Part shown: positions 11,396-49,400 of the stretch, piece after piece | How positions within the stretch are numbered: the first letter of the stretch is position 1 | Layout: each line of letters opens with the position of its first letter | Assembly: GCF_963675165.1 (NCBI RefSeq) | Contig: NC_087392.1 | Span: forward strand, 4,299,442-4,363,441 | Direction: 5' to 3' | Length of the DNA stretch: 64,000 nucleotides | Source: Halichondria panicea | Taxonomy: Eukaryota > Porifera > Demospongiae > Suberitida > Halichondriidae | The notes under the pieces: generated by a model | What the model saw: the letters and a program-made list of their open reading frames with translations, nothing else | The model's database searches: none | Told to the model about the DNA's origin: nothing | Translations under genes and position numbers: made by a program

Positions 11396-12346
11396 TCATA
11401 TGTTTCTGACAGGTATCAAAAACCAAATGGGACTTCTTCGCTTTGAGAGCAAAAGTACATTCAATCGACTTTCTTTTTTAACATATTTCTTATCCAAAAA
11501 TCTCTGGTAGCCGATCTTAAACACAGGTGCTTTCCAAAAGTTATTTAATACATCAAATGTAGTCATATCCGATAGCAGTAGAAAGACATGAAATCCAATT
11601 ATCGTATTGAGCACAATGAAACCACCAACAGTAGGCATGAAAAGTTCGACCAAAGGTCCGAGCATTTCCAGTGAATCTGTATCTAAAGGGTCCAGTTGCA
11701 ACCTCGACCAAACATTCGGGAAGAGACAGTCCCCAAAATAGAAGCAACTCATGGTCAGAGAATATCCGAGCCCAATTGACCCATAGCACAGAGTCAAGAA
11801 AAAGTGTGCGTATGTATTGAGGCCAACGCAATTTCCGGTAAAGGGACAGTGATGATCCATGTACGAAGTTACAGCCTGACACTTCTTACAATAGCGATGT
11901 TTTTTAGTCCCAATTTGGTCTTGTGTATCCACACAGTCTGTTGGGCGATCAGGATCATTCTTATTGCCTTGGCCTTTCTTCGGTGACACATCGTTATTTT
12001 CACTTTTGGTTTCAGAGATTACTACACTGCCTGCATGTGCGAACACTGCCATACAATAGTTAACGACCATATTTCCCCATACCCAGTAGGCAAACCCACT
12101 GTGACAGACAATCTTAAAGTTTCGAAAGGGGACGTTAGGAAAGAGAGGTATAAAATAGACAACTTGGAACCCCAAACCAGTGATTGCAAAAATGGCCATG
12201 AGCACGATTAGGAGAGTGCTTGCAGTTTGGTTGGTAAGCCTCTTGATGTTCCATCGTGGTAGGAGCAGACGCAGGAGGTCCACAATGAGGGGGGTCTGAA
12301 CAAGGCCAATCAGGAAAGCAAGGATGTACACCAGCCATGACAGCAT
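11396..12346 (-). CDS. DHHC-type palmitoyltransferase-like membrane protein, copy 1 (intronless)
   Basis: Single-exon gene of 316 residues, read from ATG at 12346 (the longer frame opens with GTG). It is a multi-pass membrane protein: hydrophobic segments at about residues 3-25, 40-65 and 85-105, then the DHHC region, then two more at about 180-205 and 225-255. The DHHC quartet is at about 164-167 in YMDHHCPFTGNCVGLNTY. Upstream sequence is reduced to YCKKC; the usual first Cys pair and the next scaffold Cys are absent. TTFD after the last membrane segment sits where DHHC enzymes carry TTxE, and the C-terminus has SRLNVLLLSKRRSPIWFLIPV-like sequence shared with copies 2 and 3. S-acylation of proteins is the family activity; whether this enzyme is active is uncertain. 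Confidence 0.86.
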   Translation of the reverse strand: MLSWLVYILAFLIGLVQTPLIVDLLRLLLPRWNIKRLTNQTASTLLIVLMAIFAITGLGFQVVYFIPLFPNVPFRNFKIVCHSGFAYWVWGNMVVNYCMAVFAHAGSVVISETKSENNDVSPKKGQGNKNDPDRPTDCVDTQDQIGTKKHRYCKKCQAVTSYMDHHCPFTGNCVGLNTYAHFFLTLCYGSIGLGYSLTMSCFYFGDCLFPNVWSRLQLDPLDTDSLEMLGPLVELFMPTVGGFIVLNTIIGFHVFLLLSDMTTFDVLNNFWKAPVFKIGYQRFLDKKYVKKESRLNVLLLSKRRSPIWFLIPVRNI

Positions 12347-12749
12347 GGTGTTTAATTCCAGGTACTGTACCACATGTAGATCTAGCTATTAAATGTGTGT
12401 ACATCAGATCATGCCTGAGTGGGTGGGGAAGCCTGTGAAGCGTAATTTGCTATAATTATACAAAATGAAGCTGTCTAAAATTTTTGCAGCTTAATTAAAA
12501 TTTACGTATAGCTTTCAGTGTTAATTACAGTACTTGCATGTTTGTATAGCTAACTGATACCTTGTGGACCTATACCTACTATTATTGGGATGACTGTTAA
12601 TGTAACCTGATATATAGAGCAGAAACAAAATTAATGCGTAATGTTCAACAGGTATTAATACTCAGTGGTAGATCAGGGAATTTAATTTATTACCTGATAA
12701 AGGTATGATAGTTTCAGGTACAATCTTCTTGTGGAAAGGGACGGTAGGT

Positions 12750-14200
12750 CCACAGTATATCTATAGCAGGGAGTCGTAGTCCCTATTCTGTGCACATTTT
12801 AAGGGCAAACTTCTGTACTTTTTCTATTTTGTGAGAATTTGTTTTTTGGTGTGGATCCCAAATATAGGGGCAGCATATTCCAGTTTTGATCTCACAAGTG
12901 AGATGTTAAACATTCTAGTGACGAGTCGCCATAGAACTGTCGGTATAAAGTATACCAACCTGCTTGCAGGCATTTCTGCACATTCCTTCTATGTGTTTTG
13001 ACCATGAGAGGTCATGAGAGATCCACACGCCAAGCGAAGGTACTTGCAGTGGTCAACTTTAAGTAGGGGACTTCCACTAATATTGAGACACATGTTGGGA
13101 AGTGGTGGGCTAGCTGGATTTTCATGATGTATAGTTATGTATTTACATGCACTTGCGGATATAGGATGGTAAAGAAGAAGATCATCAGCATAGAGCAAGA
13201 GACTTCCTTCATTTTGATTTGTATTCAGTAAGTCAATGTCATTTATGTAGATTAGGAAAAGAAGAAGTCCCAGCACCGAACCATGTGGAACTCCTGACAC
13301 AACCTCAGAGATTTTGATGACTTTCCATTTACTGTGACATACATGTATTCTATTCCTGAGATAGCTTGAAATCCAAGATGGGATGGGGATCTAAGTTCAA
13401 TTTGGTTAGCTTACTCATCAATATCGAGTGAGGAACCTTGTCAAATGCCTTTTTGAAATCAAAAAAGACTGCACATTATTATACTCTGACCATCTTCAAG
13501 CAGTTTGTGCCAATTGTGCACTGCCGTAAGCAGCGCATCTGTGGTGGATTTTCCTTTAGTGAAACCCATGCATTGTTTATTCGAGAGGAAAGATATATCT
13601 TTTAGATGCTCTAAGATTTTGCTATACATATGTTTTTCCAGGAGCTTTACAAGGATGGAGAGTATAGCGATATAGGGCGATAGTTTAAGGGATCAGACTT
13701 GTCGTTTGATTTAGAGACATGAACCAATTTCCAGTCGTATGGCAGTTCACAGTTTTTTTTATCGATAGAGCATTGTAACTGTTATACTTGGGGTGATCGT
13801 TTCAGCAGTAGCCTTCAGCATTTTGGCGGAGATTCCGTCAGGATCATTTGATTTTGTGGTGTCTAGATTGGATAACAGGTTGAATACTTCATATTCTGCA
13901 TGTGCAGCGTAAGTTCTCAGGTAAGTCTCTTGTTGGTTGTTTAAAAAAAAAAAAAAAGGTATATCTGGGTCAAGAGGAGGAAGTGAATGGTTGAAATTTG
14001 CATAAAACTGTTTGTTATTAAGGACCTGGGCCTTTTCTTCATCTTGTTTGATTTTGCGGCCATTTACTATACAAGACATGGGATAGAGCTATCTGGTATT
14101 TCAGAGCAGTCCAACATTTTTTTGACTGAGGCTTGAGGGTGCTAAAAAAATCTTCTGTCTGAGAGTGGTCACAACCTTATTTCTGATCTGTTTGTAGGTG
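12750..14200 (-). pseudogene. Degenerate non-LTR retrotransposon (LINE) fragment
   Basis: Reverse-transcriptase remnants read on the minus strand in several frames. The better block (about 13300-12989) has GVPHGSVLGLLLFLIYINDI and a catalytic YADD. Upstream (about 13750-13400) the frame holds LNYRPISL, a TKGKSTTDALL-like block and FFDFKKAFDKVPH, broken by frameshifts. About 14079-13760 carries the linker region before the RT with a homopolymer expansion. No intact endonuclease or 5' end was found. The order of motifs is that of a jockey/CR1/RTE-type LINE. It is dead, 5'-truncated, and lies between DHHC copies 1 and 2. Confidence 0.85.
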
Positions 14201-14295
14201 CAAAATCAGAAGGTTTGTTGTATTTGCGCGCAAGTCTGTGTAATAGTTTCTCTTTTTGATATCTTTTATTATCTTTTCCATGCACTTATAACAGT

Positions 14296-14463
14296 GCATG
14301 GAACCCCTCTATAACGGACACCTTTGGGGAACAATGTTTTGGCCTTTATACAGAGGTGGCCTTTGTTGAGAGGTTGTTTTGCACAAACTATTCATTTAGG
14401 ACCTGAGTGCCTGGCCGTTATACAGCAACTGGGAGGTGGTTGTTAACAGAGGTTCCACTGTAT
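14296..14463. repeat. Dispersed repeat family A copy
   Basis: About 170 bp with GTGCATGGAACCCCTCTATA at one end and GAGGTTCCACTGT at the other; internal blocks CAATGTTTTGGCCTTTATAC and GGACCTGAGTGCCTGGCCGT. The same organisation occurs at 1926-2096 and, inverted, at 30157-30342. Confidence 0.8.
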
Positions 14464-14510
14464 TTCGGTGAATATAGTTGTATAGGGTTGAATGCTTGCA
14501 TTCAACTATA

Positions 14511-14654
14511 TACACTGTAAAAAATGGTGTGTGGTTTTGACGCAAGTGCGTGACTATTGTGGCAATTATCAGTAAAAAACGCAAGAAAAAACGCACGTTT
14601 GCCACAATAGCCACGCACTCTGCGTCAAAACCACACATCATTTTTTACAGTGTA
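14511..14654. mobile_element. Perfect-hairpin foldback element
   Basis: Opens TACACTGTAAAAAATGGTGT and closes with its near-exact complement. Arms of about 55-60 bp surround a short centre containing GCAAGAAAAAACGC. No ORF. This is a non-autonomous foldback transposon in form. Confidence 0.85.
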
Positions 14655-15031
14655 GCCTCCTTAAATTCACAGGCCTTGGATTGAACTCTCAGAAGTGTGA
14701 CCTGGGACCAGGCTAGCATTTAACCCGAGTCTCCATCACAGTGTTATAATTGATTAGCCATGCTGTATATTCTACACAAGCTTGAAAACTGCAATGCCAT
14801 CCATTTAAAATACGAAATTCTAAAAATATGTTCGTTTTATTCTGCAGATGTCAGCTAGTGTTGGACTCACATACACACGCTGGGGAACTTGGAAGCGCTT
14901 CCTGAAAACAATTCTCTATAGTGACAGAATCAGTGGGATCATTTTTCGTGCGATATCTGATTATAAGCTCCGTCTTCATGTAGTGGGATAACGTTGTTCA
15001 TTTACTGACTTTTAAAAGGTGAAAAAATTTA

Positions 15032-15440
15032 TAGCTCACCAATCGGTTCATGCACTATAGCTCCAACACAGCCACAGGCCTGAAAGTGTAATGAATATTC
15101 ATCCATGACTTTAATAGAGGAGCAGCTGTGTGTGATAAGCATGCTGATTATCTCAATATGCAATATGGCAGGCCGGAGTTAGAGTTGAAATGCAAAATAT
15201 GCCAGCAGCCCCACCCACTTTATCTCCAACAATAACACTTACATACACATTATATACAGTATATATAGCTCACCAATCTTCCATGCATGCACTCCAACAC
15301 AGGCCTGAAAGTGTAATGAATATTCATCCATGAAACTTAGAGCTATGTGTGATCATATAAGTCATGCTGATCATCTCAACATAGGCAGGAATTATAATGC
15401 TGCAAAATATGCAAGCAGCCCCACCCACTTTATCTCCATG
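15032..15440. repeat. Diverged tandem duplication 3' of DHHC copy 2
   Basis: About 180-200 bp at 15032-15228 recurs at 15268-15438. Shared blocks are AGCTCACCAATC, ACAGGCCTGAAAGTGTAATG, AATATTCATCCATGA and CAGCCCCACCCACTTTATCT. The second copy ends 27 bp before the DHHC copy 2 stop codon, so it may form part of that gene's 3' UTR or terminator region. Confidence 0.8.
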
Positions 15441-15465
15441 CCACTAAATAACATAGTAATAGAAA

Positions 15466-16467
15466 TTATTTATGCTTCATCTTGTTTTTGTTACTAACCG
15501 GCAGCAAATACCACCAAGCACTAGGTCTCTGATTCAGAATCAATACATTCAGTCTGCTGTCAGCATCAAGAAACTTTTTGCCTCGAATCCTATGCCACAT
15601 AAATTTTGCCATTGGGTACTTGCTCCAGTACGTAAGCACATTGTACGTAGAGAGATCAGACAGTAGAAAGATAATCTGTAGAATAAGTAGAGAAGTTGTT
15701 ACAAGGTATCCGGAGAAAACTGGGATGAAAATCTGACTATGAATGTCCAGCTCCTCGCATATAGCATCAGGATTTCTGTCTTGCACAAGTCTGAAATACC
15801 ATAGGATTATTTTTACATTGCACTCAAAGAAATAGGGGACTGTAAGAATAACAGCATACAAAAGCCCAATCGATCCATAGAGAAGGCCTATAAAGAAGTG
15901 AGAATAGTTATGTAATCCTGCACAACAGCCGGTGAATGGACAATGGTGGTCGATTAGTGGAACAGCACAATCACAAATGGAACAATAGTGAATATCTTTA
16001 GGGTGCCAATCAAGACCATTAGTAGGCTCTGTGGGAGCTCGATTTTTATCATGATCAGAGGACTCCTGTAAAACTTGCAAACTGGTATCTTTTGTTGATA
16101 ATGAAGAGGATGGTTTCGATTGTTTATACTCTTCTTTTCGTCCGGGATGAATGCACACAACATGGTAGTAGTTGCCAACCATGTTGAACCAGAGCCAGAG
16201 GGCAAATATTAGGTGTAGCCACCCAGTGAAAGAGTGCAACGGATCTGGTACCGTCACTGGCAGGTAGACAAAGATGTGGTAACTGATTCCAATGCAGAAG
16301 ATCATGCCCACACACACAAAGAGAATATAGTGGACAAAGTTGCCAGCAGCTCGAGAAATCTTCCAGTGAGGAACAAAGAAACGGAGGAGGTCTATCGCTA
16401 TCGGAACTTGGACAACCGCCACTAAAAATATTGTGGTGTAAACAAACCAGGAGGATGAGGGAAGCAT
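15466..16467 (-). CDS. DHHC-type palmitoyltransferase-like membrane protein, copy 2 (intronless)
   Basis: Single-exon gene of 333 residues from ATG 16467; the frame extends four codons further to a TTG that is not a likely start. The topology matches copy 1: N-terminal hydrophobic segment, then a shared VPIAIDLLRFFVPHWK-type block, two further segments, a polar insert rich in Lys/Ser, the DHHC quartet at about 173-176 in LIDHHCPFTGCCAGLHNYSH, and two more membrane segments. It shares SRLNVLILNQRPSAWWYLLPV at the C-terminus. The zinc scaffold keeps only YCSIC; the cysteine that should precede the last four residues before DHHC has moved by one or been lost. STYN replaces TTxE. It lies 0.4 kb from copy 3 in the same orientation. 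Confidence 0.86.
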   Translation of the reverse strand: MLPSSSWFVYTTIFLVAVVQVPIAIDLLRFFVPHWKISRAAGNFVHYILFVCVGMIFCIGISYHIFVYLPVTVPDPLHSFTGWLHLIFALWLWFNMVGNYYHVVCIHPGRKEEYKQSKPSSSLSTKDTSLQVLQESSDHDKNRAPTEPTNGLDWHPKDIHYCSICDCAVPLIDHHCPFTGCCAGLHNYSHFFIGLLYGSIGLLYAVILTVPYFFECNVKIILWYFRLVQDRNPDAICEELDIHSQIFIPVFSGYLVTTSLLILQIIFLLSDLSTYNVLTYWSKYPMAKFMWHRIRGKKFLDADSRLNVLILNQRPSAWWYLLPVSNKNKMKHK

Positions 16468-16895
16468 CTCAAATCTCAAATCTGTACAAATATTAGACTA
16501 CGTAAAAGTCTTGTCATGTTCACAAGATCTATTGTGTCAACATTCAAACTACAGCTACAGTAAAAGAACCATTATGATAGAGTAAACTACTTAACTGACA
16601 CTGTCTATGATTGTATAGATAATAATATGTTTAGAAAAATTATAGCTATAGCTTACTCTTGCATGTATAGTTTCTTACAAGATGTTTTTGCTGAGAGTAA
16701 TCAGAAGCTAATTACTTGAGCTGCACCGCGCCTGTCGGACCTCCTCTGGTTTCTTACCATAAGATTATGCCATGCCAGACTCAGAGCCAGACTGATACAC
16801 AATTAATTGAACAGTTCAGGTCAAAGTACATTAATGGGTGAATGCAGACACAATAGAATCCAAACTTGATAAAATAACTTAACAAAAGAAAACTG

Positions 16896-17933
16896 TTACA
16901 CTGCATGTACTACACAAGATGAAATAGAATGAGAGTTTCCAACTGGAATTAGATAATGAAACCACCGTCGACGCTGACTCAGAATCAGAATGTTTAATCT
17001 GGAATCGGGATGAAGAAATTTCCTTCCACGCATTCGGTGTCCAATAAAAGATAGCATAGGTACTTTTGCAGCATTCTTTAACACATTATATGTTGAGACA
17101 TCTCCAAAGAGTAGTATGTTCTGTGCAACAAACATCATGCCCACCAGCCAGAGTGCAATTATAACTGGGATGAATACACGACTCTGAGTTCCAATCCAAT
17201 CGCAAATGTCCGTTTCCAAGTTTGTGTGGTCGATAATACCGAGATACGACAGTAAATATTTTATGTCACATTTCCAAAAATACGGAGCAGTCAGTATAAA
17301 AGCATAAATTCCCGCCATGAGTCCGTAAGAAATTCCGATATAGAAATATGAATAGTTGTTGACGCCAAAACAGGTTCCAATGTACGGACAATGATGATCT
17401 AAGTAAGCCACTCGATAGTGACATATCTTACAATAATTTCCACGGCCTGGATACCATTGCATACCGTTACTAGGAATATTACTTTGACTAGTTCCATTTG
17501 TATCATTCTTTAACTGATCTCCACTTCGATTTCGAACATCTGAGGTAGTTACTTGGTTGCTATTATTGCTAGTGCAGCTGTTATACTTCTGCCAATTCTC
17601 GCCTTCTTTGTCAGGTGACTTATCGACTCCAGGGTGTGTCAAAAGCGCCCGATAGTAATTGACCGTAATATTTATCGCTATCCAAATGATAAAGACAATA
17701 TGGAGTATTCCAGACACTGTATGAAATGGGTCAGGTTCGTAGAGGGGCAGAAACACACAGAGCAGTTGCCATAGCGCTGTGAAGCCAACAGTGGGAGCAG
17801 CAACTATCAGGATGTAACGAGACCAGTAGCCAACTCTTGAGAGCTTCGAATCGGGACAGGCAAAGCGAAGGACATCAATAAATAGAGGAGTGTGTGCAAT
17901 CACCACCACCACACCATACACGTACCAGAACAT
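16896..17933 (-). CDS. DHHC-type palmitoyltransferase-like membrane protein, copy 3 (intronless)
   Basis: Single-exon gene of 345 residues from ATG 17933, with the same plan as copies 1 and 2. The DHHC quartet is at about 179-182 in YLDHHCPYIGTCFGVNNYSY, preceded by NYCKICHYRVA, where the third scaffold cysteine is Arg. The insert before it is Asn/Ser-rich with several N-x-S/T sequons. The cytosolic tail has STYNVLKNA and SRLNILILSQRRRWFHYLIPV. The catalytic Cys is kept. The start codon is about 260 bp from the divergent katanin start. Sequence between the three copies is clearly diverged, so this is an old tandem expansion and not a recent assembly artefact. Confidence 0.86.
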   Translation of the reverse strand: MFWYVYGVVVVIAHTPLFIDVLRFACPDSKLSRVGYWSRYILIVAAPTVGFTALWQLLCVFLPLYEPDPFHTVSGILHIVFIIWIAINITVNYYRALLTHPGVDKSPDKEGENWQKYNSCTSNNSNQVTTSDVRNRSGDQLKNDTNGTSQSNIPSNGMQWYPGRGNYCKICHYRVAYLDHHCPYIGTCFGVNNYSYFYIGISYGLMAGIYAFILTAPYFWKCDIKYLLSYLGIIDHTNLETDICDWIGTQSRVFIPVIIALWLVGMMFVAQNILLFGDVSTYNVLKNAAKVPMLSFIGHRMRGRKFLHPDSRLNILILSQRRRWFHYLIPVGNSHSISSCVVHAV

Positions 17934-43400: not shown

Positions 43401-46400
43401 GGGGGCGGGAGATTTGGACGAGTACTGTGTGAGGGTGTGTGTGTGGGAGGGGATAAACAATGTGAAAGTTGATATACTCTATTTGCATGCAATAGTGGCC
43501 AGGGCTTCTAATTCTAATTTCTTTGATTGAGACGAGCAGGCCATTGAGACACAGACTTCTATTCAAGATATACTATAACACTACACATGCATTACACTCA
43601 CATCAGCTGGTACTTTTGGAGGGTCTGCCACAAACGTTCTGAACTCTGGGAAGGTAACAACATATAGTCATGCACACTCACAACAACACACCCCAGGCTG
43701 TATTGCTGTGGCTAACGGAGATACCTACCAGGGAGGTTGGACTTGACTTTGAGGGACAGCTTGTAGTTTTTACGCAATGTGGACAACACCTGTGGCAGGA
43801 AAATAGTGTAATACTCAGAACATCACATGATTGAGCGGTCCAATCACAACACAGTACTCCAACAATTAAGACAACATACTCATTACCACAGAGTACATGT
43901 ATTGTACCTGATTCAGCTCCTTCTTAATACAATTTCCATCATTTATCTCCAATATCTGAATAGAAATTGATACAACAATTAAACTAGTACACACATTAAC
44001 AGTGACACATACATTGCATGGACACACAAAGCAAGGTCAACCCCTATACCCTAAGTTACACTCTTTATTCATCCATTGTACATGCATGAGACATAAACCC
44101 AGGTATAAGGACAAAATCAGGCAAGGAAAGCTATTAGGGAACGTTAGTTTTGAGTGAATATGTAGTGATCACCTGATCTCCTAGTCTAAGCCCCGCCTTC
44201 TCTGACATTGACCCTGGCTCGACCTTTGACACAAACACGGGATGCCCGACCTCCCATCCTCCCACCACCTCAAACTCCAGTGGAGAGTTGGTACCTGCTC
44301 GATCCTATAAGGGGGGGGGGGGGAGTGTGTACATGTACATTGTATATCGCAATGTTTTGTAAGCATAAAAATTATAATTATGGCATCGCAAAAATAAGAT
44401 CGCGAAGCCTATACCAGTACTTGCGGTATGACATCAAGACCCTTGCCTGATCGCAAAAGTTGGATTGCATAGTGTCAAATGTTCTGCTAATTTGGCTCAT
44501 TCGCAAAACATTGTAGTACATCAACATGTACATGTATGTAGTAATACAGCAGCCTGTTACCTGCATGGCTATGTCTACACTGTACATGTGTGCTCACCAG
44601 CTCAATGCCTGTTACCTGCATGGCTATGTCTACACTGTACATGTGTGCTCACCAGCTCAATGCTCCTGGTGGCAGCTCGTGATGATCTCAGTTTATCCAG
44701 AGTCCTCTTCTCACTGAGCTTGCCCTGAGAGAAAGAGAGACAACAATCAACAGTCAGCACACACTCATTATCAGCTATTTTAGAGAGAATTAACTGAGCT
44801 AAAGACTATCTAAATTGGAAAGTATACAACTGTAACTTATGTATACACTATGCAATTGATCTCTTTCAGCTGTACCCCTGCTTCAGTACATACGAAATAA
44901 TGTAAACAAACTATGAAATTGGATCCTCAAAACTAAACGCACACACTACTAACAATGTAGTATTGATCAACTCAATTGACTCACGTCTTCTACGAGTCGT
45001 ATCTCGAACCAGTCCAGGAAGTCCAACATCTCTGTCATCTCCTCGAACTCAGAGTATTGTTCTGCCACCCAGTATGTCAGTATCACCGTCACCTGTACAC
45101 ACAGGCACAAGGTATACACAGCGTAAATCATATTATTGGTAACAACTTGATATACTTACATGTATACAACAGCCGGCCTGACTTTAAGCTATACAAAAAC
45201 ATATGTACAGTACAGCACAGGTCAATAACCAACAGTACCTATTCAACTGTGTATGGGTAGATACAGTAGAGAGGTACACTGTATAGTTGTTAGTTCTGAT
45301 CTGTATACTTCAGGATAGTACTTAGAAGTACGGGTAATTGTAGCAAAGTTCATTGCCCACAAGAAATTTAATTCCACTGTAAATAAAAAAACAAAAATAC
45401 AAACCGTGCAATCTAGAATGACTATGAAAACAGTTAATCATGCACCAATAATGATGGCTAATACTTGCACAGACAGTTAGTAGCCAGAAGCAGCACCACT
45501 GCAGTCTATAACCCTCGGAATGACCTTACTAAGATGGCCAATGTGGCGGCGGCACTTCTCCGTATCGACTGTGGTCCAGAATTGTTTAATTCCTTCTATC
45601 AGCTCCGTCTTGGTTGTTGGTTTAACCTCTTGTTGTATATAATCCTTGAGCTCGTGCCATAAGTTTTCAATTGGGTTTAAGTCAGGGGATTCCGGGGGTG
45701 TGCGCCACCAGTTGATGGTCTCAGATTCAAAGAAGTTCTTGGCCTTTCGAGATGTATGCCTAGAATCATTGTCTTGCATGAACCTATGAGTTGAAGGGAA
45801 GTTCGATTGAATAAATGGAACCAAATGTCTACGAAGGATCTCTAGATAGAAATCCGTGTCCATTATCCCTTCAAAGATACATACTGCGGTCGCTCCCTTT
45901 TTACTGATGCCAGCCCATACTTGAACTTTTACGGGTTGCTTTGGTCTTGGTGTCAGTTTTCGAGCCTGGTCTTTTCTACGGAAAGCATGTCGGTGATGAG
46001 AATCAAGTTGGATCGAGGTTTCGTCACTCCAGATGACATCTTCAAAGTCATCCTTCTCCTGTATCTGCTGCACACACCATTCTAAACGCTTCACTCTGTT
46101 CGGTTCATGAATCATCTGACAGTATCGCGAGCCACGAAAGGTCCAACCTAACTCTCGCCGGTACTGTTTCAATGTAGTCAGACTAATACCTATACCACTG
46201 ATATGTAGGACTTGCTGTAGTTGTGTGGCAGTAGTTTCACTGTCACTCTGCATTTTGGCTTCTACAATGCACTTCACTTCAGGAGTGATCTTGGTCTTTC
46301 TTCTAGAGCCAGATTTTCGTAAAACAGATTTATTACTTCGGTAGTACGACAAAAATTTGCTGACAGACTGACGAGACAAGTCCACTTCATACATCTCTTG

Positions 46401-49400
46401 AAGGTGGCTAGATATGTAACCTGCTGTCCATCCTTTACTTGCAAGATAGAGAATTGTATGCTTAATGTAATGACTGACTTCGGCCATCACTTTTCTTTTC
46501 TGACAAAAATAATTCTAGACTGTATGTAGATCTAGAGCAGGCAAGATAATGATTGTGCTTATATTTGGCCACAAGTACCTTATCTACTCACTCCCACACT
46601 ACCCTACTACCCTATGTAAGTACCTGTACTACCCTTAGGTACCCGTATACTACCTCAAGTACCCCTACTACTACCCTAAGTACCCCTACTACTACCCCAA
46701 GTACCCCTACTACTACCATCTACCCGTGCTACCCATATTCACATTTACAATAGGTAAGTACTACACTACTAGGTATACATGGAATTTCGGTTCAGATACC
46801 AAAGTACTATAATTATGGGTCTTGTAGATCCCGAAATGTTTTTATTGACCAATATTTTAACTGCACACATTGCACTCTATGTTTAGACGCCTTCTCCAAC
46901 TGACTCGCTACCGCTACCAAAACAGTTCACTAGTGACCCTATACCGTACACCAGGTTTTGAACACGAGAGTCGGAGACTATCTGCCCCCTGAAAGAAACC
47001 CAGCCAACCTACCCTCTCTCTCTGCTCAGGCATTCCTTCGACCCAAGCCTTCTTGAGCTGATCCACTACGACCAGGGGGGAGGGGAGGAAGGTCTTGTAC
47101 GTGAGCAGGAAGTCCTTCATAAACAAATCGTCCACTGTCTCCTCACAGAGGTTCTTCAAGAGCTCCTCCGGGGTCGCCTGTGGGTGTGTATGGGGGGAGG
47201 GGTACATCGAGTAACAAGCTACAACTGTATTGCCAGCAAGTCCCAAGTGTACTGTCCAAGCATATTGCACTGCTGAGAATGAACACGGTACATTTACACA
47301 ATCAATGCTTATGTCTTAAACACTGCATATCATTGAATAACAGCTAAAAATAACGTGGACAGTAATGGACTAATCCTCCTTAATTATGTACATGCACGTG
47401 GGTGGGTTGAAGCCATACTAAAAACCACGCAGCCTTACACAAAATACATCTAGACTCTTAGTGACTTTGAATGCCTATCTGCCATTATCCCCCTCCCCCA
47501 CATACACACCCATCCGTACCTGTACAATAAAGTAGCCCTCCCTCTTGGCGTCCACGGCTCTCTTCTCCAACACTGCCACCAGCTCTCCGCCCACCTCCAC
47601 TCTCTTCAGGTTCTCCTCTCCCTGAATCTGCACACGACTGTACTCCTCCAGGGTCACAAAGCAAAGCTGGAGGGGACAGATGGCTCGTTTGATAAAAGTA
47701 ACAAAAAATAGGAATAGGTTACATCTCCTTCCAATAAAGAAAGTAACACTTCAAGTCTTGGCGATCATACTTTTGTGATGCCATAAGCACTCGCACTAAC
47801 TTTACAAATATAAACCACTCATAAAACATTGTAGCTACATGTACATGATAAAGACAAACATTGACAGAGTGTATAAGTGACTGAATGGCTTACAGTGCAT
47901 GATTTCTCTGCTGTGAGCAGCTTCCCTCTCTGAGGGAGCACCTTGAGACTCTGGTTGATGCCAAACCTGGAGCACACACAGGGAGAAAACAGCACATGAC
48001 CTTGAAATAATCAACACATACATTTATACTCTGGGAATAGAATATAGATTTCTGCTAACTACAAAATCCCATGGCTGTTTGTGTCCCAAGGCAACAAAAT
48101 ACCAGTACACGTATATCCTTTATATCGTACAGTGAATGACTAAACAGTCATACACATTAAGCACAGCACAACACATTAAATATGGTATGTAAGGATAGGC
48201 CATAACAGGATGCAGTAATTAGTGGCTAGAATGGGTGCAGACTATTGCGTCACTTCATAATCAGGTCAACCCTCTATTATTTATACAATAGCTTATACAG
48301 CCAGGTTAATGGGCCCCAAAGTCTCCATAGAATGTGTTTGGACCTGTATTAGCAGGCCACCTCTAATGGAGCCACTGTTGATCTGTTCAACGACAAGGGT
48401 GAATGGTATAAACAGGTTTCACTGTGACTTGTTTCATCACGTGGAAGCTACAGCAGTACGTACATTAAACAATCCATACAAGGCTCCAAAACACTATAAG
48501 ATCACTTAGTGGATCAATCACAAGAGACAGCACATTAACAAGGCAACGGTGAGTATTGAGAGAGTTCACAGGACAACAAAGTCAAGACCTTGTACTAGCC
48601 TTGTCCACTACCACTCACATGATCAGCCATCATTGCATACACAAGCATCACAGACACGTACACATAATCAAGCAAAGGCTGAGACACGCAATGAAGTACT
48701 GCTAACAGTGGAAAATTGCTCTAAGTGCACACTAAAGTGGGAATAACTCAAACCACACCAAGAGATCTCCGAATCTCCTGCCTAAGAAATCACACCACCA
48801 GGTCCCACAAAGATCTCATACAAATGTAGGAAAAACCTCAAATCAACCAAACACTTTTGGTAACTCTGTTGGTTCCCACAAGGTACTGTTACTGTAGTAC
48901 GGTACTCACGAGTCTCCAACGTGGTAGGTCCTGTCCGTGTCCGAGTCCCTCACCAGTCGCAGCTGACCGTTGAGCACTACATACCACTTGTCCACCTGAG
49001 GGAGGGGGCGGGACAAAGCCACAACAAGTAAAGTATGGCCTCAACTATGTATACATGTAATACAGTGAATCTGTCGATTAAGATACACTTTTGTGGGAAC
49101 AGTATAATTATAATCAAGACAATGTTGTAGAGAGGCTGTACTGTACTAGGAGGCTCTATGTACTGTATTTTATAGGTAGGTACATTTTAGGTATGGATCA
49201 AAGCACTAGCTAGTACTGTTCTTGGAGAGGCACTTGTACATGTAAACAGTGTCCCTAATTTGACAGCCTTTTATTAGAGGGTCCCACAGTCTAGTTATAC
49301 ATTATGTGATTGCTGTACACATCTCTACAACACCAAACCTACCTCTTCCCCGTTGTCAATGACGATGGAGCCCTCGTTCTCAAAGGTCTGCAGCATGAGT

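Follow-up and report, generated by a model that had tools for sequence, protein, structure and literature searches.

Three tandem DHHC-type genes of the sponge Halichondria panicea with a cysteine-rich domain predicted to bind one zinc instead of two

The protein S-acyltransferases of the DHHC family are described as having six conserved cysteines in a cysteine-rich domain (CRD) with two zinc sites (PMC5359973, PMC7586229), both of the CCHC type (PMC7586229). The solved structures of human DHHC20 and ZDHHC9, which served as templates for the ligand map given below, have the complete two-zinc CRD. Here we describe three single-exon genes, named g1, g2 and g3, from a stretch of 64,000 nucleotides of the sponge Halichondria panicea (assembly GCF_963675165.1, contig NC_087392.1, positions 4,299,442 to 4,363,441 of the forward strand), which is called the window and whose numbering is used throughout. 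We consider it probable that g1-g3 form an old family, arranged in tandem, of DHHC protein S-acyltransferases that are membrane-bound and in which the CRD would bind one zinc and not two, a reading built on Pfam DHHC matches in all three products, on PDB matches that are all DHHC enzymes, on a one-site pattern of zinc ligands and on invariant family residues.

Departures from the two-zinc scaffold have been described in several systems. The yeast enzyme Akr1 is active with most of its zinc ligands missing (PMC8227752). This protein has a DHYC motif and ankyrin repeats, and only one of its six zinc cysteines is left, which differs from the clean one-site loss of g1-g3. Some of the DHHC genes expressed in the testis of Drosophila are clustered and strongly divergent. 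The testis group (CG4956, CG17195-17198 and others) is a narrowly expressed set within one genome, and one of its members, CG17197, has an Arg in the DHHC motif (PMC4192757, PMC5364179), and a comparison of yeast, worm, fly and human enzymes reports many CRD cysteines missing in some of the non-worm enzymes (PMC4192757). In the duplicated DHHC genes of Trichomonas, the HC, C and DHHC positions are lost together (PMC4109852), whereas g1-g3 keep DHHC and one whole zinc site. In the accessible portions of the literature on ZDHHC22, on degenerate DHHC scaffolds and on sponge and fly DHHC genes, we found no description of a DHHC enzyme from an animal in which just one of the zinc sites is complete. 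Losses in the CRD as such have been recorded before.

The three genes lie head-to-tail on the minus strand, along which their order is g3-g2-g1: g1 at 11396..12346 (316 aa), g2 at 15466..16467 (333 aa) and g3 at 16896..17933 (345 aa). An earlier note on this DNA, made from the sequence alone, had taken them for single-exon DHHC paralogs in the same orientation, and this is borne out by open minus-strand frames ending at 11396, 15466 and 16896 and by the DHHC domain found in all three. The coding starts were placed at ATG codons that align across the genes; the listed frame starts of g1 (GTG) and g2 (TTG) are a few codons upstream of them. The Pfam DHHC search, which that note had proposed as a check, gave 62.6, 62.4 and 66.6 bits for g1, g2 and g3, respectively (E from 3e-18 to 6e-17), against a cut-off of 28.7 bits. 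When the window proteins were searched against PDB sequences, each search returned eight distinct matches at E up to 1, and all eight were DHHC enzymes. The matched entries were DHHC20, ZDHHC9, ERF2, ZDHHC5 and 6bms, the last one labelled only as 'Palmitoyltransferase', with matches spanning the CRD and the membrane parts; ZDHHC9 and DHHC20 were found with every one of the three proteins. None of the three matched a model in NCBIfam.

Protein identity is 36% between g1 and g2, 40% between g2 and g3, and 31% between g1 and g3, so that the closest pair adjoin, in agreement with an origin by tandem duplication. At this divergence the three frames, of more than 300 codons each, are open and no sign of frameshift was seen in them; in pairwise codon comparisons, third positions differ in 65-69% of codons and second positions, the most conserved ones, in 34-39%. 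Long frames kept open at 31-40% identity mean that g1-g3 have been under past selection, and chance is ruled out as their origin. A frameshift or assembly error is likewise ruled out by the three intact frames. Single-exon, or intronless, refers here to the continuous reading frames, and a non-coding 5' exon may exist.

Zinc ligands were mapped in the numbering of DHHC20, anchored on positions given in print and on the printed PDB alignments. We take site 1 of DHHC20 to be formed by C128, C131, H141 and C148, and site 2 by C142, C145, H155 and C162. The printed positions are R126, K135 and H140, with DHHC at 153-156, and partial backing for the assumed split comes from the SHC sequence of DHHC8, whose His and Cys hold different ions (PMC8227752). 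On this map, site 1 is lost in the three window proteins, with Tyr at the H141 position in all of them and Val, Ala or Arg at the C148 position of g1, g2 and g3, respectively, and with no CxxC equivalent to C128/C131 within 45 residues upstream. By contrast, site 2 is whole in all three, as the equivalents of C142, C145, H155 and C162 are present, the last one as a Cys six residues after the catalytic Cys. The reduced CRD of g1 (11801..11893, minus strand) keeps C153, C156, H166 and C173, has Y152 at the H141 position, V159 at the C148 position and T178 where an Asn is usual; that of g2 (15895..15987, minus strand) keeps C162, C165, H175 and C182, with Y161 and A168 as replacements, and that of g3 (17343..17435, minus strand) keeps C168, C171, H181 and C188, with Y167 and R174. 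Measured against the six cysteines and two sites of the family description, each protein falls short, with three of the six CRD cysteines left and a single zinc histidine out of two. The DHHC motif is intact in the three proteins, and the Trp position after it holds Phe in g1 and g2 and Tyr in g3. In place of the outer half of the CRD (CxxC, KPxR, H141 and C148) there is a variable polar linker, which follows an HPG (g1 and g3) or HAG (g2) at the place of the usual DPG. A missing exon with the CxxC pair was also considered and is ruled out, since the frame runs without interruption from the second transmembrane segment to the CRD in the three genes and the 45 upstream residues contain no CxxC.

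The earlier note had read most of these letters correctly: the retention of DHHC and of YC-x2-C, the Val, Ala or Arg at the next Cys position, the change of Trp to Phe, Phe or Tyr and the absence of the earlier Cys pair hold in all three proteins. Its statement that only YC-x2-C remains upstream is right, but it missed that the C162 equivalent is also kept in the three and completes one site with the equivalents of C142, C145 and H155. Its description of a decayed zinc scaffold is misleading, given that the loss is confined to one site and the other one is whole in every protein.

Outside the CRD, the regions that follow the last membrane segment were compared with those of the family. The TTxE equivalent is TTFD in g1 (11552..11563), where TT aligns to that of TTNE in ZDHHC9, and STYN in both g2 (15640..15651) and g3 (17085..17096), the second Thr being kept in the three. 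The PaCCT region extends from SRLN to LIPV in g1 (11408..11470), from SRLN to LLPV in g2 (15496..15558) and from SRLN to LIPV in g3 (16941..17003), all of them on the minus strand, with an Asn and an LPV block that are invariant. This Asn aligns with Asn266, the structural Asn of DHHC20, in an alignment to a provisional DHHC20 sequence, in which the Asn is followed by an FG that is absent from g1-g3. The SRLN block and the ST/TT-x-(D/N) motif, which had been proposed as marks of one subfamily, are therefore the PaCCT and TTxE regions of the wider family. By hydropathy, the CRD of every one of the three proteins is preceded by three hydrophobic segments and not two, a point that the earlier note had missed, and it is followed by two in g2 and g3; in g1 the first segment behind the CRD stays under the threshold. 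The window proteins thereby show the layout expected of a family member, in which at least four membrane segments are present and the CRD lies between pairs of them. The usual DHHC topology has two segments before the CRD, and the extra first segment of g1-g3 would resemble that of zDHHC4, which has three. The helix order in AlphaFold2 models of g2 and g3 matches the hydropathy at a low confidence that does not make it evidence.

The other DHHC genes of this sponge were located by a Pfam DHHC scan of the genome (131 Mb, 39 contigs), which gave 18 places, three of them being the window genes. Searches of the genome with the window genes found each other first and then weak CRD matches (best E of 4.5e-6 for g1, 2.3e-4 for g2 and 1.8e-5 for g3), and no relative closer to g1-g3 than they are to each other was found in the 131 Mb. 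Full-scaffold closest relatives together with frameshifts, which the earlier note had named as grounds against its own proposal, were thus not what we found: no frame is broken, and the remaining DHHC places of the genome are distant. A motif scan of the 15 other loci gave rows for 12 (L034 repeats L008); of the remaining loci, all of them exons, L031 and L032 start downstream of DHHC and L033 stops short of it. Cys occupies the C148 position in all 12 readable loci, L030 and L033 included, and the H141 position is His in 11 of the 12, the exception being a Leu in L008 that is probably at an exon edge. Trp follows DHHC in 10 of 11 other loci in which the motif is readable, with L001 as the exception. 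This gene (C10:2036415-2037329, 305 aa) has a full two-zinc scaffold with Phe in place of the Trp, and it is also single-exon, so the single-exon state is not special to the g1-g3 array. A second cluster was observed at C9, around 5.157-5.171 Mb, where three DHHC places (L006, L027 and L029) lie within about 14 kb; it includes two near-identical CRD exons, and L027, on the opposite strand, carries Ser where an Asn is usually invariant.

Patterns derived from the alignment of g1-g3 produced 85 matches in a viral contig collection and 65 in a genome contig collection, none of them confirmed, and the prokaryotic and viral scope of these collections says nothing about animals. With L001, four pattern matches were obtained in the viral contigs and none was confirmed, and exact DNA patterns gave 0 and 0 matches in the viral contigs and 0 in the genome contigs.

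In order to place g1-g3 within the family, we compared them with ZDHHC22, ZDHHC24 and ZDHHC20, using provisional sequences for the three human proteins. Human ZDHHC22 presumably has Phe at the H141 position and Val at the C148 position, and keeps site 2. It also presumably shares an FTGNC with g1, and a lumenal-loop and second-segment pattern, FLP..DP..LH..N..GNY, that is like that of g2. In print, its motif is RHDHHCFF, with Phe in place of Trp, and Trp is found after DHHC-x in 21 of 23 human enzymes, ZDHHC22 and ZDHHC24 (RRDHHCRL) being the exceptions (PMC12117998). The loss of Trp noticed in g1-g3 is real in the three proteins and not unique to them, as it extends to these two human enzymes and to L001. 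Against these provisional sequences, single-sequence scores of g1 were highest with ZDHHC22 among four targets (34.7 bits, versus 28.6 for ZDHHC20), and those of g2 were near level (32.0 versus 31.5 bits). Ungapped CRD identity, calculated without DHHC and the two readable site-1 columns, was 0.33, 0.36 and 0.22 to the provisional ZDHHC22 and 0.29, 0.36 and 0.38 to ZDHHC9 for g1, g2 and g3, respectively. Of two trees that include the provisional sequences, one of 51 CRD columns put the window genes with L001, ZDHHC22 and ZDHHC24 at 88/82, which is below the starred level, and with the order inside left open, whereas in the full-length one they stood apart and were not joined to ZDHHC22. There are also differences between them: ZDHHC22 is shorter (263 aa versus 316-345 aa) and is gapped against most of the first hydrophobic segment of g1-g3, and L001, which on comparison by eye with the provisional sequence looks like ZDHHC24, shows 21-24% identity to the window proteins and keeps the full two-zinc scaffold.

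These comparisons weakly support that the nearest known branch of g1-g3 may be that of ZDHHC22/24. The loss of site 1 appears to be shared by ZDHHC22 according to its provisional sequence, of which RHDHHCFF is the printed part. It is conceivable, although we hold it only as a tentative proposal and rather doubt it, that animals have an ancient clade of one-zinc DHHC enzymes, with g1-g3 and vertebrate ZDHHC22 descending from one ancestor that dropped site 1, whose outer CRD half would have been freed for substrate recognition. The earlier suggestion of a lineage-specific subfamily with fewer zinc sites is therefore upheld by sequence in what concerns the sites and doubtful in what concerns the lineage, given that ZDHHC22 appears alike in its provisional sequence.

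Several observations weigh against one-zinc enzymes or against their kinship with ZDHHC22. A survey of DHHC enzymes from yeast, worm, fly and human describes one Asn as absolutely conserved (PMC4192757), and g1 has Thr in its place. The acyl-CoA phosphate patch, formed in DHHC20 by R126, K135 and H140 (PMC8227752), is only partly replaced in the window proteins, which have R, H and N at the H140 position, and the Glu of TTxE is replaced in all of them, by D in g1 and by N in g2 and g3. AlphaFold2 models, computed from three-row alignments with g2 or g3 as the first row, were too poor for the geometry of site 2 (mean pLDDT of 41.6 and 41.4, respectively). With the provisional sequences, g3 scores 40.7 bits with ZDHHC20 and 20.5 bits, the lowest of the four targets, with ZDHHC22, and the profile of the three genes prefers ZDHHC20 (49.6) to ZDHHC22 (44.5), L001 (26.7) and ZDHHC24 (21.7). 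Finally, a genome search with L001 ranks other full-scaffold DHHC places first (the strongest at E of 3.9e-12), and two window genes come up only near the end (8.9e-4 and 0.0016).

Part of this evidence would fit catalytically dead or repurposed DHHC-like membrane proteins, that is, pseudoenzymes acting as scaffolds or chaperones, for which the fly protein GABPI, probably inactive and with Ser in place of the DHHC cysteine, is a precedent (PMC4192757). Site 1, the KPxR block and the Glu of TTxE are gone in g1-g3, and g1, to which this explanation is most apt, also lacks the otherwise invariant Asn; but retention of the nucleophile is not expected in a dead enzyme, and DHHC, the site-2 ligands, the Thr of TTxE and the Asn of PaCCT are invariant in the three proteins at 31-40% identity, so we regard it as unlikely while giving it more weight than any other alternative. 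Two zincs could still be bound if the linker or other loops supplied replacement ligands, candidates being the single Cys that g1 has in the 45 upstream residues and an extra Cys of g2 directly before the C148 position. This is very improbable in our opinion, as g2 and g3 have no Cys in those 45 residues and no replacement Cys there is common to the three.

Random erosion of the scaffold in duplicates that are turning into pseudogenes would be compatible with the tandem arrangement, with the remnant of a reverse transcriptase that separates g1 from g2, and with the poorly conserved members found among the heavily duplicated DHHC genes of Trichomonas; but there the HC, C and DHHC positions are lost together (PMC4109852), whereas the DHHC and site 2 of g1-g3 are untouched. 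The three frames are moreover intact at deep divergence and their losses are limited to one site. If four of the eight ligands were lost at random, exactly those of site 1 would be hit in 1 of 70 cases, or in 1 of 35 if H155 is fixed by catalysis, figures that count a single event because g1-g3 share descent and that constitute an argument and not a proof. With losses confined to one zinc site and the other whole, the change looks like a clean removal of that site, and random decay, to which we give the least credit of all, was rejected.

We thus favour one-zinc acyltransferases and infer the zinc count, the activity, the expression and the membrane location of g1-g3 from their sequence. If so, the proteins would reside in an internal membrane and expose the CRD to the cytosol, as deduced from solved family members, and the kept site, made of the equivalents of C142, C145, H155 and C162, would brace the DHHC-bearing loop. 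The catalytic cysteine would take a fatty acyl group from acyl-CoA and pass it to a cysteine of the substrate. With the outer, site-1 half of the CRD swapped for a polar linker, the choice of substrate or the regulation would probably be shifted and catalysis kept. The two zinc sites are usually treated as one structural requirement; natural one-site enzymes would separate their roles and test which zinc positions the catalytic loop. Were the ancient one-zinc clade true, a CRD would need no more than site 2 and DHHC for catalysis, and the rule of two zincs would not be general. The same logic could extend to human ZDHHC22, which has been implicated in the palmitoylation of BK channels and, reportedly, of mTOR. 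This protein is listed as an enzyme of the endoplasmic reticulum or Golgi (PMC5364179).

The array is flanked by genes on the plus strand, with a mitochondrial-carrier exon ending around 11161 on the side of g1 and a katanin p60 gene starting around 18192 on the side of g3. The reverse-transcriptase remnant between g1 and g2 occupies 12989-13390 on the minus strand, as g1-g3 (PF00078, 31.3 bits, cut-off of 29.6), and a nearby frame at 13759-14079 matched no Pfam family. At 14511-14654 there is a fold-back element, likely mobile and of small size, in which inverted repeats of 34 nt (97% complementary) and 21 nt (95%) are nested, and downstream of g2, at 15073-15438, two direct repeats of 36-38 nt are interleaved with a spacing of 210-225 nt. 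Elsewhere in the window, an intact minus-strand frame at 45477-46514 (345 aa from stop to stop) matches the transposase domain DDE_3 (80.5 bits) and, weakly, a helix-turn-helix of the Tc3 type, which together indicate a Tc1/mariner-like transposase.

A further observation concerns the papain-like proteases of this genome, in which Peptidase_C1 was found at 77 places. Among the best 30, 16 loci gave 17 active-site lines, of which 15 read CGSCW, one CGNCW and one CGSSW, and none of the 17 was of the silicatein type, as judged by the silicatein motif. In L047 (C8:493345-493998), within a group of papain-like protease genes at C8, 0.49-0.52 Mb, the catalytic Cys is replaced by Ser (CGSSWAF).

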